Below are positions 4,239-10,318 of a stretch of 42,649 nucleotides of DNA, one piece after another. The stretch comes from Daejeonella sp. (GTDB lineage Bacteria; Bacteroidota; Bacteroidia; Sphingobacteriales; Sphingobacteriaceae): assembly GCF_017495225.1 (NCBI RefSeq), contig NZ_JAFEIG010000008.1:1-42649 (forward strand), written 5' to 3'. Numbering within the stretch: position 1 is the stretch's first letter; the number at the start of each line of letters is the position of its first letter. A program made the position numbers and the translations under genes. Under the pieces are notes generated by a model. It had not been told where the DNA came from, did no database searches, and saw only the letters and a program-made list of their open reading frames with translations.

Positions 4239-4544
4239 TTATTGTGTTTTTTGTTGTTTGATTAAATTTTCGAGTGCTTCTAGGTGTTTAATGAACGCCG
4301 TTTTTCCTTTTTCTGAAACGGAGTATTGAGTATTGGGTTTTTTACCGATAAAAGTTTTGTTGATTAAGATATATGCTTCTTTTTCTAGGGCTTTAAGATG
4401 AGATGCAAGATTCCCATCAGTCAGTTCTAATAATTCTTTGAGCGAATTAAAGTCGTAACTCACATTGGCCACCAAAACGCTCATAATTTGTAGGCGAATG
4501 CGGTTTTCAAAGGCTTTATTAAACTGTGCTAGACTATTCTTCAC
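4239..4544 (-). CDS. Small winged-helix transcriptional regulator (HTH_34/MarR-like)
   Basis: A 101-residue DNA-binding protein. The segment FENRIRLQIMSVLVANVS forms the first helices, FNSLKELLELTDGNLASHLK is the helix-turn-helix, and KTFIGKKPNTQYSVSEKGK is the beta wing. This matches the stand-alone winged-helix family (PF13601-like) often found with creD-type genes in Bacteroidota. Its start overlaps the stop of the upstream membrane-protein gene by four bases (ATGA), so translation is coupled. With no ligand domain, it probably senses through dimerisation or through its membrane partner. The two palindromes at 4206 and 5169 are candidate autoregulatory sites. Confidence 0.88.
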   Translation of the reverse strand: MKNSLAQFNKAFENRIRLQIMSVLVANVSYDFNSLKELLELTDGNLASHLKALEKEAYILINKTFIGKKPNTQYSVSEKGKTAFIKHLEALENLIKQQKTQ

Positions 4545-5161
4545 TGCTTATATTTAAAATGCATGATTGCGCCATAAATGATATGAAGAAGACCAAAGCC
4601 GGCTATCCAAAATAGAAGTCCGTTTTCTGGCATCCATGCTGCTAAAAGTCCTAAAGTTATTTGGCAAAATCCTAAGTATTTAACATCAGAAAAAGTGTAC
4701 TGGCTAGCCGCAATGAGTGCCAAACCGTAGAACAAAAGGCATGATGCAGCAATAAATTGATATTCAGCTTTTGATATTAATATTAGTATGAATAGTCCCC
4801 CTGTAGCTAGCGGAATAGCCATATTAGTGATTAATCTTTTGCTAACGGGATTCCAATAGTGCTCTTTTTTCTTCTTTGCTTCGCGGATAGAAAGTAAGAT
4901 ACCTGTGAGAACGGAAAACACCAAGACCAAAGCAGCAATAAAATAAAGAGTATGATAGATGCTGGGATTTTCTGCGTATGATTCGCTGATTATTAAGCTA
5001 TTATATTTATCAGTAACAAGTTGATAGGCCCCAAATGCACCTATTGATGCGTAGATGCCGGCCAATACTCCAGATAATCCGCTCAGAGAAAGGAATCTGG
5101 ATGAGCGTTCCATGAGGGATCGGATTGAAGCTAACTCAGAATGAATGTCTTTTTCTTCCAT
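4541..5161 (-). CDS. Hypothetical multi-pass membrane protein partnered with the winged-helix regulator
   Basis: A 206-residue protein with a soluble N-terminus (MEEKDIHSELASIRSLMERS) and about six hydrophobic segments, around residues 24-48, 70-92, 110-130, 132-152, 158-172 and 178-200. I recognise no named domain. It starts the transcript that continues into the winged-helix gene (four-base overlap) and probably creD. A membrane protein translated together with a small repressor may hold or release the regulator, but that is speculation. A palindrome lies within eight bases upstream of its start codon, over the expected promoter. Confidence 0.8.
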   Translation of the reverse strand: MEEKDIHSELASIRSLMERSSRFLSLSGLSGVLAGIYASIGAFGAYQLVTDKYNSLIISESYAENPSIYHTLYFIAALVLVFSVLTGILLSIREAKKKKEHYWNPVSKRLITNMAIPLATGGLFILILISKAEYQFIAASCLLFYGLALIAASQYTFSDVKYLGFCQITLGLLAAWMPENGLLFWIAGFGLLHIIYGAIMHFKYKQ

Positions 5162-5298: not shown

Positions 5299-7452
5299 TT
5301 ATTCTAATCTTGTTTGTTTGGACCAAAGTTCACAGTATTTGCCTTTTTGGGTTAGCAATTCCCAGTGGTTTCCTTGTTCAACAACTGACCCGTTTTCCAT
5401 TACAAAAATAGTATCTGCATCAGCGATTGTACTTAAGCGATGTGCAATAATTATTACCGTCTTACCTTTAGCCTTAAAACTGTCTATGACTTCTTTGACA
5501 ATGGTTTCAGAATTAGTATCTAGTGAGGAAGTGGCCTCATCCATCAATAATATTTCTGGGTTCTTATATAATGCTCTAGCGATAGCAATTCGCTGTTTTT
5601 GGCCTCCAGAGAGCATAGTTCCATTTTCTCCAATTTGTGTTTCAAATCCGTTTGGCAGTTTTTCTACAAACTCAGTAATACCTAATTGTTTAGAAAGGTC
5701 CATTACCCATTGGATATTCGGAAATGTATCACCTAGGGCGATATTATCGATTATGTTTCCTGAAAAAAGGTTAAGCTGTTGCGGAATTACTCCAATTGCG
5801 TTTCTTAAACTTTTGTAATGAATGTATTTTAAATCATAATCACCGATATATATTTTCCCTTCCTTAATTGGGTAAAGATTTTGAATAAGTGAAATCAGGG
5901 TAGTTTTTCCACTTCCACTTTCACCCACAATGGCAGTAGTTTCATTATTTTTAAAAACAGCATTAAAATTTTTAAACACTTCAATTCTGGAGCCATACCT
6001 AAAAGAAACATTTTCAAACGTTATATCACCAATAAGCTCTTTATCAAGTACAACCTTGTTTTCAGTCTCCTCCCGTTCTAAATCCATTATCTCAAACAAT
6101 CTATCGGCTGCAATTAAGGCATTTTGTGCAGTTTTGTTCATTCCTATTAACTCTGCAACAGGAGAAGTAAAATATCCTATCAAGGCATAAAATGAAAATA
6201 ATTCACCAGGTGTTATTTCTCTGTCAATTACATAGCCAGAGCCAATCCAAAGTAAAACAATAGTAAATATAGAAGCTAGAAACTGTGTTGAGGTTCCAGC
6301 AAAAACACCATTCATGCCAGATTTATAAATGCTAAACAGCAATTTTACAAATTTATTTTCAGTCTTAAAGTTCGAAAAATCTTCAATTCCAAATTCTTTT
6401 ACGGTACGAATATGCGAAATGCTTTCAACCAATTGGGTTTCTAATTCGGCTCCATTTTCCATAATGCTACGTTCTACTTTTTTGTTAAAACGGTTCATTA
6501 AATAATAAATTATTGCATAAAAAGGAATCACCAGGAGAATGACTAGGGCAAGTTTCCAATAATATGTAAACATTAGTGCGAATGAGAAAATAACGATAAA
6601 GACATTTACAACCAATTCTATGGCAACTTCGTTAATAAAAGACCGTATTTTTACAGCATCGTTAATGCGTGAAGTAATTTCGCCAATTTGCATTGTGTCG
6701 AAAAATCGCTGCGGTAAATGGAGCAAATGTTTATAATAGCCCAAAATCAACTTGGCATCTATTAGTTGACCTGTTTTCATTACAAAAATGCTCTTCTTTG
6801 AGTTGATGAATGCTTGCAATAATATTACCACAATCATACCTACACTTAATAAATTAAGCAGGTTCCGGTTACCCTCCACTAACACATAATCGGTTATTTT
6901 TTGAACATAAATTGACATGGCCAATCCCAAAACAGTAAATAATATTGCACCAAATAAAGATTGAATTAATATTGTTTTATGGGGTTGTATTAGTTGCCAA
7001 AATCGACGCAGAGGCGAGGTCTTTTCATTTTTGGCCATAAAGTCATCAGCAGGAGCGAGAAGAACTAATACCCCTGTCCAGATTTTTTTGAAAGCCTCAT
7101 ACGTATAGGTTTCCATTTTACCAAGGTCAGGATTCATTACGTTTATTTTATGTTTTGTAACTTCATAAATAACAACGTAGTGGTGTAAATCTTCTTTTAC
7201 AATAACATGTGCTATTGCTGGAAGTGGTATTTTGCTAAGTGCATCAATACCACCCTTTACACCTTTAGCGGTAAAGCCCATTCTAGCGGCAGCCTCTATA
7301 AGACCTAGAACATTGGTGCCCCTTTTATCAGTATTTGCATATTGACGGATACGTGCTATAGGAAGATTAACTTTGTAATGATTGCCAATTGAAGCCAAAC
7401 AAGCTGCACCACAATCTTTAATATCATGTTGTTTTATTTTAATAGAGGCCAT
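5299..7452 (-). CDS. C39-peptidase-containing ABC exporter (bacteriocin/peptide processing and secretion)
   Basis: A 717-residue three-domain exporter. The N-terminal C39 protease domain (about 1-130) has the catalytic cysteine in KDCGAACLA (C14), histidine in HHYVVI (H91) and aspartate in MNPDLG (D109). These enzymes cut leader peptides after a double glycine. A six-helix transmembrane domain follows (about 160-440). The ATPase domain has Walker A GESGSGKTT (510-518), signature LSGGQ (614-618), Walker B ILLMDE (634-639) and H-loop H671. All key residues are intact. It lies 35 bp downstream of an HlyD-type adaptor and in the same direction as two small peptides with double-glycine leaders, its likely cargo. 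No outer-membrane TolC-like gene is in the window, so a chromosomal one would have to be shared. Confidence 0.95.
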   Translation of the reverse strand: MASIKIKQHDIKDCGAACLASIGNHYKVNLPIARIRQYANTDKRGTNVLGLIEAAARMGFTAKGVKGGIDALSKIPLPAIAHVIVKEDLHHYVVIYEVTKHKINVMNPDLGKMETYTYEAFKKIWTGVLVLLAPADDFMAKNEKTSPLRRFWQLIQPHKTILIQSLFGAILFTVLGLAMSIYVQKITDYVLVEGNRNLLNLLSVGMIVVILLQAFINSKKSIFVMKTGQLIDAKLILGYYKHLLHLPQRFFDTMQIGEITSRINDAVKIRSFINEVAIELVVNVFIVIFSFALMFTYYWKLALVILLVIPFYAIIYYLMNRFNKKVERSIMENGAELETQLVESISHIRTVKEFGIEDFSNFKTENKFVKLLFSIYKSGMNGVFAGTSTQFLASIFTIVLLWIGSGYVIDREITPGELFSFYALIGYFTSPVAELIGMNKTAQNALIAADRLFEIMDLEREETENKVVLDKELIGDITFENVSFRYGSRIEVFKNFNAVFKNNETTAIVGESGSGKTTLISLIQNLYPIKEGKIYIGDYDLKYIHYKSLRNAIGVIPQQLNLFSGNIIDNIALGDTFPNIQWVMDLSKQLGITEFVEKLPNGFETQIGENGTMLSGGQKQRIAIARALYKNPEILLMDEATSSLDTNSETIVKEVIDSFKAKGKTVIIIAHRLSTIADADTIFVMENGSVVEQGNHWELLTQKGKYCELWSKQTRLE

Positions 7453-7487
7453 AAAAGTTTTTTATTTAACTGTTAGGTTAAGAACAG

Positions 7488-8618
7488 TTATTTTATTTTA
7501 GGATTTAGCCAGTCATCAACTTTATCAAATAATAGATCGAATAAGCTGCGCTTGGTAATAATGTATCGAGTGGTAAGCGTCATACCTTTAGAAACTTTTG
7601 CCTTATAGCCAGATTTGAGTTGTAATTTGGTAGATTTTAATGATGAACGTACATTAAAAAAAGCCTTCTCACCCTGCATTGTTATGTTGTGGTCAATATC
7701 TGTTACAATTCCTTCAAGTAATCCCCATTGGTTGTAGTTAAAGGCATCAATTTGATATTTAACCTTTTGGCCTTTTTTAATCAATCCAATATCACTAGGC
7801 GAAACTGAGCTTTCAACAATTAAACTGTCTATTGACGAAATATTAGCAATGAGTTGTGATGCATTTAAAAATGAACCTATTTGAATGCCTGAAAATCCCT
7901 CAATCGTACCAGTAATTGGAGCAATAATTACGTAGTTTTTAAATTCGATTTTTATTTTTTGGAGTGTGCCATCAAGGTTCTGCAATTGATTTTGCAACTC
8001 TCTTTTTTGGTTTTGCCAAATGCTTTTTTGGCTTTTGCTTAAACTTGCTAATGATTGTTGTGTGTAAAGGTAATCAAAGCTAAATTTTTCAAACTCGGCC
8101 CTTGAGATAACTGCTTTATCAAAAAGAATTTTATTGCGGTCATATGCTATCTTCGCTTGAGCAACTTTGTTCTCGAGTTCGTTCATTTTACTGCTATACG
8201 ATTCCCATTCTTGTTGCAATTCTGGGGTTTTAAGCGTGGTTGTTATGCCTGTCAGTATTTTTGTTAAATCGTAAATTCTGGCATTTAAACTTTGGGATAT
8301 GTTTTGATTTGTTTGTTTTTCTGCGTTAAGGCTTTCTTGGGTAAGTACTATCAAAGTATCGCCTTTATAAACCATGCGATTGTTTTTGAGGTTAATGCGT
8401 ATCACTTTACCATTTACTAAGCTACTTAGTGGTACGTTGTCTGTTGTGCTGCGTATAATTCCTCGACTTTGGCTACTAATGTCTGTTTTTACTGATGGCA
8501 AGGAACCTAAAGCAGTAAATAGTCCTATTAAGACAACTAAATAAATTGAAATACTTTTGGTTTTATTTTTGGCGACAAGGTTTTCAACAGTGTTTATCGG
8601 ATCCGAACTGAAGTTCAT
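7488..8618 (-). CDS. HlyD-family periplasmic adaptor (membrane fusion protein) of the peptide exporter
   Basis: A 376-residue membrane fusion protein. A cytoplasmic tail is followed by one membrane helix (about residues 22-42). Then comes the first half of a lipoyl domain (VNGKVIRINLKNNRMVYKGDTLIVL) and a coiled-coil hairpin of about 110 residues with repeated Q/K/L heptads. The second lipoyl half (YVIIAPITGTIEGFSGIQIG) and a beta-barrel domain ending near SGYKAKVSKGMTLTTRYII complete it. Such adaptors join the inner-membrane ABC exporter to an outer-membrane channel. It sits just upstream of the C39 exporter and downstream of the peptide genes. A 12-bp perfect hairpin separates its start from the small genes. 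Confidence 0.93.
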   Translation of the reverse strand: MNFSSDPINTVENLVAKNKTKSISIYLVVLIGLFTALGSLPSVKTDISSQSRGIIRSTTDNVPLSSLVNGKVIRINLKNNRMVYKGDTLIVLTQESLNAEKQTNQNISQSLNARIYDLTKILTGITTTLKTPELQQEWESYSSKMNELENKVAQAKIAYDRNKILFDKAVISRAEFEKFSFDYLYTQQSLASLSKSQKSIWQNQKRELQNQLQNLDGTLQKIKIEFKNYVIIAPITGTIEGFSGIQIGSFLNASQLIANISSIDSLIVESSVSPSDIGLIKKGQKVKYQIDAFNYNQWGLLEGIVTDIDHNITMQGEKAFFNVRSSLKSTKLQLKSGYKAKVSKGMTLTTRYIITKRSLFDLLFDKVDDWLNPKIK

Positions 8619-8652
8619 ATAGTTTTTCTATAAGGGCGTTATTTTAAATGAA

Positions 8653-8681
8653 ATTACACCCTAAATAAATTAGGGTGTAAT
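8653..8681 (-). terminator. Perfect 12-bp hairpin between the small peptide genes and the exporter genes
   Basis: ATTACACCCTAA and TTAGGGTGTAAT form a 12-bp stem with a 5-nt loop. It lies 35 bp before the hlyD-type start and 198 bp after the 44-residue gene. On the minus strand only a weak U-tract follows, so it is better seen as a partial terminator, a processing site or an RNA 3'-end stabiliser, which would allow more peptide than exporter to be made. Function is inference. Confidence 0.5.
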
Positions 8682-8878
8682 AACTTAGGCTATATTTAGC
8701 TACTTTTGCGTGTAATTAATTGAGGCTATAAGAAGATTTTCTATAACAAATTACTTAACTGGTAAGTTTTAACCAAATTATATACTTTCTTTAAAAATTA
8801 AGAATTCAAGCAGTTGTTTTTCAACTAATTTTTAATGCCTATCCCTAATCTACCCTATAAATCACAGAGAATATATAC

Positions 8879-9013
8879 TTAATTCAATAGAAAATAGACT
8901 ATGCCTACAATACATCCTAATAAAAACGTAAAGTAACAATATTTAACTATCTCAAAATAGGTAATTTCTAAATCAAATATTTTAATAAATATTTGATTAT
9001 TCTTATAAGCCAT
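8879..9013 (-). CDS. 44-residue single-span membrane peptide, candidate immunity or accessory protein
   Basis: A short open frame with ATG at 9013-9011 and TAA at 8881-8879. Its start lies one base after the stop of the preceding peptide gene (9015), an arrangement that implies translational coupling. The product begins MAYKNNQIFIKIFDLEITYF and then has a strongly hydrophobic span (about residues 22-43) with two cysteines (C26, C34) and the segment LLGCIVGIVYFLLN. It has no double-glycine leader, so it is probably not an exporter substrate. Small one-helix membrane peptides next to bacteriocin precursors are often immunity proteins, which is the best guess here. It could also be a chance frame in AT-rich DNA; codon-level conservation would decide. 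Confidence 0.5.
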   Translation of the reverse strand: MAYKNNQIFIKIFDLEITYFEIVKYCYFTFLLGCIVGIVYFLLN

Positions 9014-9014
9014 A

Positions 9015-9203
9015 TTATCTAGTCGCTTTATCTAAAAGTTTACAAACACCATATGCCACAACTGCACCAAGTACAAATGCTCCGAGAAGCATTCCTCCGC
9101 CGACTGCAATCGCTGCTAAACCTACAATTGGTGCACCTCCCTCAGTATTTTTTAACTCGTTGGAAGTTAATTCAGTCAATCCAATATTATCTAAATTTTT
9201 CAT
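9015..9203 (-). CDS. Double-glycine-leader bacteriocin-like peptide precursor (62 aa)
   Basis: A 62-residue precursor. Residues 1-23 are a leader ending in NTEGG, with the hydrophobic spacing ITELTSNELKNTEGG-like pattern (actual run LTELTSNELKNTEGG) recognised by C39 peptidases. The predicted mature peptide has 39 residues, starts API, is Gly/Ala-rich and very hydrophobic. It carries a GxxxG motif (G37-G41), a single cysteine (C54) and a basic tail (KLLDKATR). This is the architecture of class IIb pore-forming bacteriocins, although peptide pheromones use the same leaders. The gene follows the other precursor by 20 bp and is followed by a 44-residue membrane peptide gene. Confidence 0.85.
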   Translation of the reverse strand: MKNLDNIGLTELTSNELKNTEGGAPIVGLAAIAVGGGMLLGAFVLGAVVAYGVCKLLDKATR

Positions 9204-9223
9204 AATTACTCTAATTTATGTTA

Positions 9224-9406
9224 TTATTGTTTTGAAAAAACAGCTATTCCTGCGGCGGTACCCAATGCCATTGCTCCAAAACAACCAGCAGCAACAACTT
9301 TAGCTGATAAATAATATCCAAATATTATAAGTGGTATAAATCCACCCTCAACTTCATTCATTTCTCGAGCATCAAGCTCAACTAAATTCAAATTTTCTAA
9401 TTTCAT
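9224..9406 (-). CDS. Double-glycine-leader bacteriocin-like peptide precursor (60 aa)
   Basis: A 60-residue precursor that opens the operon. Leader residues 1-22 end in NEVEGG and share the spacing LVELDAREMNEVEGG with the neighbouring precursor. The mature part has 38 residues, starts FIPLIIFGYY, and carries a GxxxG motif (G49-G53), one cysteine (C42) and a short C-terminal SKQ. Its similar length and paired GxxxG motif with the next peptide suggest a two-peptide system. Processing by the C39 exporter at 5299-7452 is inferred from the leader and proximity. Confidence 0.85.
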   Translation of the reverse strand: MKLENLNLVELDAREMNEVEGGFIPLIIFGYYLSAKVVAAGCFGAMALGTAAGIAVFSKQ

Positions 9407-9916
9407 AATTCTAGTTTTTGCGCCTGCTTTTACACAGTCAAGTTAATAATTTAACAATTGAAACAAAAGATATTCTGCAGATATTTTGTTTAGATAAATT
9501 TAATTACTTAAAAAGAATTTAAAAAACACTTTTTGATATAAAATATTACCTTTTTGGATTAAAATATTACTTTTTGTTTAATATATTTTAAAAAAGATAA
9601 ATGTTTAATATTTATAAATTAAGCTAGTTTGATTTTTAGTTGGTTTTAGTGCTATTTTTCTAGAATTTTAACAAATAAGTAAAACAAAAAATATAAGTTA
9701 ATTTTATTGACTTTAAATTATCTTTTTAAAGAAACCTATGGTAATGTGTTTATAAAAAAAATAGCGTTATAATTTTAATATTGGGTAATCAATTTACTTA
9801 TAGTATGTTTTGTATTATAATCAATAGAGCTTATATTTGATTAGTTTGTTTTTATAGGTTTATTCTTGTAATTAATAAAATAAATTTTCCAGTTATTGCT
9901 AAAACATCAAGACATC
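9407..9916. other. 510-bp AT-rich divergent intergenic region with regulatory repeats
   Basis: Between the first peptide precursor (minus) and the XRE regulator (plus) no coding frame is apparent. It must contain both promoters. It holds a phased repeat array at 9528-9576 and a possible minus-strand -7 element near 9464-9472 (TATCTTTTG), which would give a leader of about 50 nt. Base composition is much more AT-rich than in the flanking genes. Confidence 0.6.
9528..9576. repeat. Three phased copies of ACyTTTTTG (20-21 bp period)
   Basis: ACTTTTTG ends at 9535, ACCTTTTTG ends at 9556 and ACTTTTTG ends at 9576, giving end-to-end spacings of 21 and 20 bp, about two helical turns. The last two copies extend to AAAATATTACyTTTTTG (9540-9556 and 9561-9576). 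They lie 122-170 bp upstream of the first peptide precursor. Direct repeats with a period of about 21 bp are how LytTR regulators bind upstream of bacteriocin genes in Firmicutes; no LytTR gene is in the window. Confidence 0.5.
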
Positions 9917-10318
9917 ATGATGGAAGATATACTTTCAAAAATAAGAGAACATCGCAAGAAAAAGGGTTATTCCTACGAAACTATGGCAAGCGAGCTAAAC
10001 ACTTCTGCTGCTGCTTACAGGAAAATAGAGTTCAACCAAACTAAATTAACTGTAGAGCGTCTGTTTCAAATAGCAAAAATCTTGGAGGCTCAATTAGTTG
10101 ATATTCTAGATATTAATCCCAATAATCAATTAAATCAAACGAATACTGAGAATGCAACCGGCTATCAACAGCAGATTGAAAACTACTTTCACGAAAACAA
10201 AGAAAAGTCAGAAAAAATAGAATCATTATATGAATCTCGCCTAAGAGATAAAGATTTAATTATTAGTCAATTGCAAAGGACTATAGAAATGCAGGCAAAT
10301 TTATTGAAACGTGATTAG
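9917..10318 (+). CDS. XRE-family helix-turn-helix regulator with C-terminal coiled coil
   Basis: A 133-residue protein from ATG 9917; an upstream TTG at 9896 would add seven residues, but the ATG pair at 9917/9920 fits better just before the domain. The HTH_3 domain covers about residues 2-62: LSKIREHRKKKGYSYETMA, then SAAAYRKIEFNQTKLTVERL and LAQ-like QLVDILDI. The C-terminal half (about 75-130) is polar and predicted coiled coil, probably for oligomerisation. It is divergent from the peptide-export operon and shares its control region, so it is the likely local regulator. No signal-binding domain is visible. Confidence 0.88.
   Translation: MMEDILSKIREHRKKKGYSYETMASELNTSAAAYRKIEFNQTKLTVERLFQIAKILEAQLVDILDINPNNQLNQTNTENATGYQQQIENYFHENKEKSEKIESLYESRLRDKDLIISQLQRTIEMQANLLKRD

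Follow-up and report, generated by a model that had tools for sequence, protein, structure and literature searches.

A putative two-peptide bacteriocin locus in Daejeonella sp. and small membrane peptides that resemble the bacteriocins of their own loci

We analysed a stretch of 42,649 nucleotides from Daejeonella sp. (contig NZ_JAFEIG010000008.1), called the window here, in which positions 5299 to 10318 carry a small peptide export locus. A first-pass annotation had described two double-glycine precursors, an HlyD adaptor, a C39 exporter, a 44-amino-acid membrane peptide and a divergent XRE regulator at this site, and all of them were borne out by the open reading frames (ORFs) and by protein family searches. 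Five genes lie on the minus strand, in the transcription order PB and PA (the two precursors), S44 (the membrane peptide), adaptor and exporter. The locus comprises the following features:

9224 to 9406, minus strand: PB, putative first bacteriocin precursor, 60 amino acids, with a C-terminal GTAAG
9015 to 9203, minus strand: PA, putative second bacteriocin precursor, 62 amino acids
8879 to 9013, minus strand: S44, leaderless 44-amino-acid membrane peptide with a single predicted helix, candidate immunity peptide
8653 to 8681, minus strand: perfect 12-bp hairpin in the gap between S44 and the adaptor, possible terminator (consensus match only)
7488 to 8618, minus strand: HlyD-type periplasmic adaptor, 376 amino acids
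5299 to 7452, minus strand: C39 peptidase/ABC exporter, 717 amino acids, matching TIGR01193 and Peptidase_C39
9917 to 10318, plus strand: XRE/HTH_3 regulator, 133 amino acids, divergent from PB
9407 to 9916, no strand assigned: AT-rich stretch between the divergent genes, presumably a control region common to both

The PB leader has 22 amino acids and ends in NEVEGG, that of PA has 23 and ends in NTEGG; the mature parts of 38 (PB) and 39 (PA) amino acids each contain one cysteine. With 23.4 bits PB lies above the cut-off (21.5 bits) of TIGR03949, the class IIb family of lactobin A and cerein 7B, and PA falls narrowly below it (20.8 bits); both stay below the cut-off of Pfam family PF10439 (27.1 bits). 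No microcin family was named for either peptide by Pfam and NCBIfam, a dedicated microcin set not being among the collections searched. The predicted fold of PB is of low confidence (predicted local distance difference test score, pLDDT, 53). Pairing of the two helices had been argued from the GxxxG motif present once in each mature peptide. For PA and PB taken singly this argument was set aside as carrying little weight: composition shuffles contain at least one GxxxG in 68% (PA) and 42% (PB) of cases, so that a single motif in each peptide is to be expected from composition. The two-peptide bacteriocin reading itself has good support in the sequence, since PB exceeds the class IIb cut-off and PB and PA recur as neighbours, in unchanged order and close to a C39 exporter, in three further genera. 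An adjacent precursor pair was present in 61 of 122 loci.

The exporter matches TIGR01193 with 526.1 bits (cut-off 523.85) and Peptidase_C39 with 121.3 bits. Its C39 triad had been regarded as intact. Cys14 and the histidine of an HHY motif (residues 90 to 92) are present, but the position expected to hold aspartate is occupied by Asn107 (codon at window positions 7132 to 7134), which aligns with the catalytic aspartate of the solved C39 exporter 4ry2. Among the 74 of 162 loci that were readable by our motif script, this third residue is aspartate in 66 and asparagine in five. The adaptor matches HlyD_3 (52.7 bits). The description of the system as self-contained needs a correction: no gene for an outer-membrane channel was found within the locus, and the 15 matches to OEP, the family of TolC-type channels, in this genome are all on other contigs.

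The export genes are of foreign origin. Full-length Flavobacterium exporters are 79–85% identical to that of the window, among the matches listed from named genomes, and the exporters of the 40 Sphingobacteriaceae loci first fetched are 55–65% identical. The closest adaptor found is likewise a Flavobacterium homologue (74% identical); in 250 other genomes of the family, the best-scoring adaptor matches had at most 40% identity, with one partial match of 106 residues at 56%. In the four genus relatives that were obtained with both neighbouring genes, the exporter and adaptor are missing between ffh and the gene for a 206-amino-acid membrane protein. In the two relatives that were read (L193 and L196), comM is located between these genes, alone or together with others. 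In the window (positions 2 to 1534 and 4541 to 5161 are concerned), comM lies at another place than between ffh and the 206-amino-acid gene, so that the region has undergone rearrangement in addition to the invasion. Since the export genes are Flavobacterium-like and the locus is missing in the genus relatives, horizontal acquisition of the locus is most likely, with export genes that look Flavobacterium-derived. Vertical inheritance was rejected on the low identities within the family, the closeness to Flavobacterium and the lack of the locus at this site in the relatives. Matches were obtained in 395 plasmid records, but in none of them do they extend over 80% of the locus; the best record (NZ_AP025312.1, Aureibacter tunicatorum, 15.4 kb) covers 44% of it at 63.5% identity. 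This plasmid bears exporter and adaptor genes and is a possible vehicle for such systems.

The co-occurrence of the precursors with a small membrane peptide is kept in three other genera, where PB, PA and the small peptide form a cassette in the same order as in the window. In Flavobacterium hiemivividum (L128) PB, PA and a membrane peptide of 36 amino acids stand immediately before the adaptor, and in Aquirufa nivalisilvae (L146) the cassette is on the strand opposite its exporter. The fourth set, in Pedobacter antarcticus (L170), was found with a profile of the window, L128 and L146; its three genes are adjacent and in order. Leave-one-out profiles made from the mature parts only were run against 14,770 ORFs, and in each case the omitted PB or PA ranked next behind the three members from which the profile was built (window PB: E 6e-5; window PA: rank 4, E 0.006). 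The window's exporter shares 84, 69 and 64% identity with those of the three other cassette loci; cassette and exporter are therefore not strictly travelling together. Precursors lacking the exporter, which would have argued against a coupled system, were not seen in relatives, but this look is biased, as the loci were obtained via the exporter and cassettes without one would escape it. Exporter-independent searches of 395 genomes of the class revealed no further strong PB in any genome but that of the window: PB alone matched two other genomes, over the leader and the first 14–18 mature residues. At E≤0.01 the cassette profiles A1 and A2 matched seven and 13 other genomes, mostly with short or weak matches that were not each inspected. 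An adjacent pair matching both profiles (E 4.5e-6 and 1.1e-5) is present in locus L074 (genome G079) and represents a more distant relative. That such loci are poorly studied in the Bacteroidota, as the first-pass annotation put it, is fair for this architecture; C39 double-glycine loci, however, are common there, and a related adaptor (E≤1e-20) is present in 74 of 251 genomes of the family.

S44 begins 1 nucleotide past the PA stop codon and has no export leader. Structure prediction yielded one helix from residue 2 to 43 (mean pLDDT 84). The sequence GCIVGIVYF in S44 is matched by GTAAGIAVF in the C-terminal part of PB, and as a single observation the GIAVF of PB (likes of GAAVA in the relatives) is paralleled by GIVYF in S44 (GALIA, GALVA and GAYVA in the others). 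In the permutation test described below, S44 scored 32 against the precursors of its own locus compared with a null median of 19 (p 0.0005). The likeness to PB appears moderate, and the case for S44 as a mimic, made up of its position, its size, the one predicted helix, the GxxxG in register and the permutation test, is consistent but not decisive. The peptide had been described as a coupled extra of the export system. Rather than an extra, S44 is probably the key part of the system, as a candidate immunity peptide of the mimic type.

Similarity between small membrane ORFs and the bacteriocins encoded beside them was analysed across the C39 loci; a script applying fixed rules selected the ORFs of both kinds. 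Both were present in 60 of 122 loci (49 after removal of redundancy), and the resulting 75 small ORFs, with the L146 cassette added by hand, were subjected to a permutation test. The mean alignment score within the own locus was 28.4, compared with 21.1 ± 0.65 when loci were permuted (5000 permutations, maximum 24.4). Nineteen of the 75 ORFs had p≤0.05 (3.75 expected), and 15, S44 included, were at the floor of the test; without L146, 15 of 74 were at p≤0.001. For two of the floor ORFs the pairing is less clear: the partner in L140 is probably not a bacteriocin, and L117 is doubtful, yet its like recurs in the held-out locus L214. The held-out set consisted of 40 fetched loci, of which 17 were redundant and 23 new; nine of the latter had both parts and eight, with 12 ORFs, were kept. 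Three of these ORFs were at p≤0.05 (binomial 0.020) and two at p≤0.01 (binomial 0.006).

A first control with antisense ORFs seemed positive (3/18 at p≤0.001), mainly because the pool of foreign precursors was small. We also used a uniform test, in which an ORF must beat every foreign precursor, foreign ones at least 60% identical to an own one being excluded. Thirteen of 88 sense membrane ORFs beat all foreign precursors, compared with 1/54 sense non-membrane, 1/21 antisense membrane and 0/38 antisense non-membrane ORFs (13/88 versus 2/113 controls, Fisher p 0.0006). Taken together, these comparisons indicate that leaderless small membrane peptides in Bacteroidota C39 loci often resemble the C-terminal helix of the bacteriocin of their own locus, a likeness shown for a minority of the loci.

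The clearest pairs, in L138, L158, L149 and L232, have almost identical C-termini. We assembled 17 pairs by hand, consisting of the floor pairs minus L117 and L140, plus L146, L170, L149 (where the mimic had been classed as a precursor by the script) and the held-out L232. Their alignments stop 0–9 residues from both C-termini, and GxxxG is in register in 12 of the 17; among all small membrane ORFs the motif is found in 34 of 90, compared with 6.4 ± 2.1 in shuffles. A glycine, alanine or serine of the bacteriocin stands opposite a bulky residue of the mimic 67 times and the reverse is seen five times, a count that is biased because the pairs were chosen for similarity and partly reflects the selection of hydrophobic ORFs. 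The same hydrophobicity threshold is passed by 97 of 261 mature precursors. Such a pattern would be expected of a decoy in which a single contact face is retained and the remaining ones are lost. When a PB profile was made without the window, the next match after the four PB peptides was the small peptide of A. nivalisilvae (E 0.0036).

Small peptides of this kind were also found without their toxins. Locus L148 of Sandaracinomonas limnophila encodes an exporter, an adaptor and a small membrane peptide (L148:6618-6719); profiles detected no PB or PA there, and no convincing double-glycine precursor was found on either strand of 18 kb. Comparison of the small-peptide copies of L146 and L148 gave a ratio of nonsynonymous to synonymous polymorphism (pN/pS) of 0.22, a value biased downwards because protein identity was used to choose the pairs. 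In L073 a small peptide of this family lies beside precursors of another type. The presence of small peptides in loci lacking PB and PA points to the immunity reading, orphan immunity genes being usual around bacteriocins. In the genome of the window itself, profile A3 matched only S44 and two ORFs of contig C35 at E≤1 (E 0.036 and 0.64 for the latter two). On contig C35, small ORFs of 29, 40, 58 and 40 amino acids form a tandem array (L009:2843-3439) with no adjoining bacteriocin genes. The 58-amino-acid ORF of this array matches the held-out L232 bacteriocin (score 62, shuffle p 0.003), and the array has the appearance of a reserve of orphan immunity genes.

Our preferred explanation, which we regard as probable though far from settled, is that the locus was acquired horizontally and encodes a two-peptide bacteriocin, with S44, a non-exported mimic of PB, as the immunity peptide. 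PB and PA would be made as inactive precursors. The C39 domain would cut them after the double glycine, and their export would run through the C39-ABC exporter, the HlyD adaptor and a TolC-type channel encoded at another place in the genome. The two peptides would jointly insert into the inner membrane of related bacteria. S44, being leaderless, would stay in the inner membrane of the producer as a single helix with a C-terminal part that imitates PB. By taking up the GxxxG contact on which PB depends, be it a contact with PA or one with a target in the membrane, S44 would block assembly of the pore. The data show the gene content, the recurrence of the cassette, the foreign origin of the export genes and sequence mimicry over a set of loci; killing, immunity and the pairing step, as well as the regulation considered below, are what we infer from sequence.

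Several results weigh against this explanation. A foreign precursor (L156) scores 38 with S44, compared with 32 for PB; in a shuffle test against a pool of 283 precursors plus two, S44 gave p 0.12, and it is not among the 13 ORFs that beat every foreign precursor. S44 is 16–27% identical to the other four small peptides, and a profile of these ranks it 141st (E 30). The own-locus likeness is borderline in L146 (p 0.024) and L170 (p 0.05), and the small ORFs following the pair in L074 show no significant likeness to it (p 0.13 and 0.40). Across the loci, 75 of the 88 small membrane ORFs do not beat all foreign precursors. The bias in the count of bulky replacements and the asparagine at the third triad position of the exporter belong here as well.

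It is unlikely, in our estimate, that S44 is a conventional small immunity protein, protecting without imitating PB and resembling it as a by-product of being a short glycine-containing membrane helix. In favour of this reading, S44 taken alone is only moderately similar to PB, and tiny immunity proteins do exist: CbnZ, which confers immunity to the class IIb bacteriocin carnobacteriocin XY, has 42 amino acids and one membrane span, and the part of the report drawn on here mentions no mimicry (PMC8538875); we liken it to S44 by description only. The locus-specific likeness of the ORF class, however, is well above both the permutations and the controls, with near-identical C-termini in pairs such as those of L138, L158, L149 and L232.

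We consider it very unlikely that PB and PA act as signals to which the producer's own population responds, with S44 as part of a receptor or as an antagonist and the XRE protein as the responder. Double-glycine peptides can be signals, and a divergent regulator adjoins the precursors or the adaptor here and in six other loci. The mature peptides, on the other hand, are hydrophobic paired helices of 38–39 amino acids, unlike the known short pheromones; no histidine kinase was seen when the large ORFs of the window were read by eye, and PB exceeds the cut-off of a bacteriocin family. Little probability also remains for a contact-dependent toxin held on the surface of the producer, as in the Cdz system of Caulobacter crescentus. 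Cdz is likewise Gram-negative and combines two small glycine-rich peptides with export by a type I system and with a small immunity protein of the inner membrane, CdzI (PMC5380434). Its leaders, however, are described as RTX-like, and CdzI as a protein with three predicted spans that lacks obvious homologues (PMC5380434), whereas the locus of the window has double-glycine leaders and S44 is predicted to form one helix. That the small peptide is a functionless leaderless leftover of a duplicated precursor is highly improbable: duplication would account for the apparent homology between mimic and bacteriocin in many loci, but the third position of the cassette is kept in four genera, the copies of L146 and L148 appear to be under purifying selection even allowing for the low bias of their pN/pS, and the peptide is retained in L148, where no precursor was found.

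Mimicry of PB by S44 might be one case of a general rule in the Bacteroidota, for and against which we see the chances as evenly balanced: each double-glycine toxin would be countered by a copy of its C-terminal helix that has no leader and in which GxxxG is kept and other small residues are filled in, and such decoys would also be stockpiled without toxins, as orphans or in arrays. The filled-in decoy would bind the partner or the site of the toxin yet could not build a pore. If true, the use of the toxin's helix as a decoy would provide a simple account of immunity that can be tested directly, and immunity genes could be matched to toxins by sequence alone. It would explain how tiny, fast-changing toxin-immunity pairs stay matched while the exporter swaps between genera, and small ORFs of 30–60 residues beside bacteriocin genes would become predictable immunity genes.

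Among known systems, the locus shares with class IIb bacteriocins (TIGR03949, with PB above and PA just below the cut-off) an adjacent precursor pair, double-glycine leaders and a dedicated C39 exporter. It differs in its Gram-negative host and the HlyD adaptor, and it is known from sequence alone. Class II microcins combine a double-glycine peptide with a C39-ABC exporter (for example MchF, the exporter of microcin H47), an HlyD adaptor and a borrowed TolC. The locus resembles them in its double-glycine leaders, exporter and adaptor and in having TolC-type channels elsewhere in the genome, but it encodes two peptides instead of one; at the DNA level, mchF gave a short, weak match covering 3% of the query. 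We know of no mimic-type immunity for class II microcins. Bacteroidetocins are also double-glycine peptides of Bacteroidota with a C39 exporter, but they are class IIa-like, and no obvious immunity gene was seen for them, with producers that are self-inhibited (PMC6671954).

The closest parallel for immunity is gallocin A of Streptococcus gallolyticus, in which gip is necessary and sufficient for immunity; GIP is predicted to have a structure that mimics those of the mature toxins, which led to the proposal that it interferes with them (PMC10100652). Its genes gllA2-gllA1-gip have the same order of toxin, toxin and small immunity peptide, and the toxins carry double-glycine leaders. Gallocin A is, however, a Gram-positive system of helical hairpins with disulfides, and the mimicry concerns predicted structure (PMC10100652), whereas here it lies in the sequence, is matched to the own toxin, extends over many loci of a Gram-negative phylum, and S44 is predicted to be one helix. 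Structural mimicry had thus already been proposed for GIP; sequence-level, locus-matched mimicry did not come up in the literature searched, which covered few subscription papers, and neither did a paper on immunity of this type in Bacteroidota.

The XRE regulator (HTH_3, 38 bits) probably controls the operon. Its start codon is more likely the ATG at 9917 than the TTG at 9896. Homologues with at least 77 bits are present in six of 161 related loci, and all six are divergent from the nearest precursor or adaptor gene; one homologue elsewhere adjoins a pantothenate-kinase-like gene, showing that the regulator is not exclusive to such loci. Around the intergenic region the G+C content is about 24–27% in 1-kb windows. 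Promoter-like matches show no excess over chance (23 compared with 18.4 ± 4.0 expected), terminator-like sites number three (1.1 expected), and no RNA family reached the gathering score between positions 5000 and 11000. The hairpin at 8653 to 8681 is possibly the terminator of a separate PB-PA-S44 transcript.

The genome contains further C39 systems. Contig C35 carries a second full C39 exporter (62% identical to that of the window), which is accompanied by an adaptor, an XRE gene and peptides belonging to it. A third exporter, on contig C22, is 29% identical to that of the window; beside it (L010:3742-7712), double-glycine peptides, a 62-amino-acid membrane peptide and a thioredoxin-like protein were seen by eye. 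Contig C31 (L011:3323-5903) encodes a C39 protein of 173 amino acids without a transporter domain, possibly a stand-alone double-glycine peptidase, and a short peptide with a double-glycine leader about 2 kb away. A second type of precursor pair, with …W.DIKKG… in the first peptide and …FW.D.AYGIGY… in the next, occurs in three Bacteroidota C39 loci (L057:7083-7464, L123:5822-6190 and L136:5859-6203).

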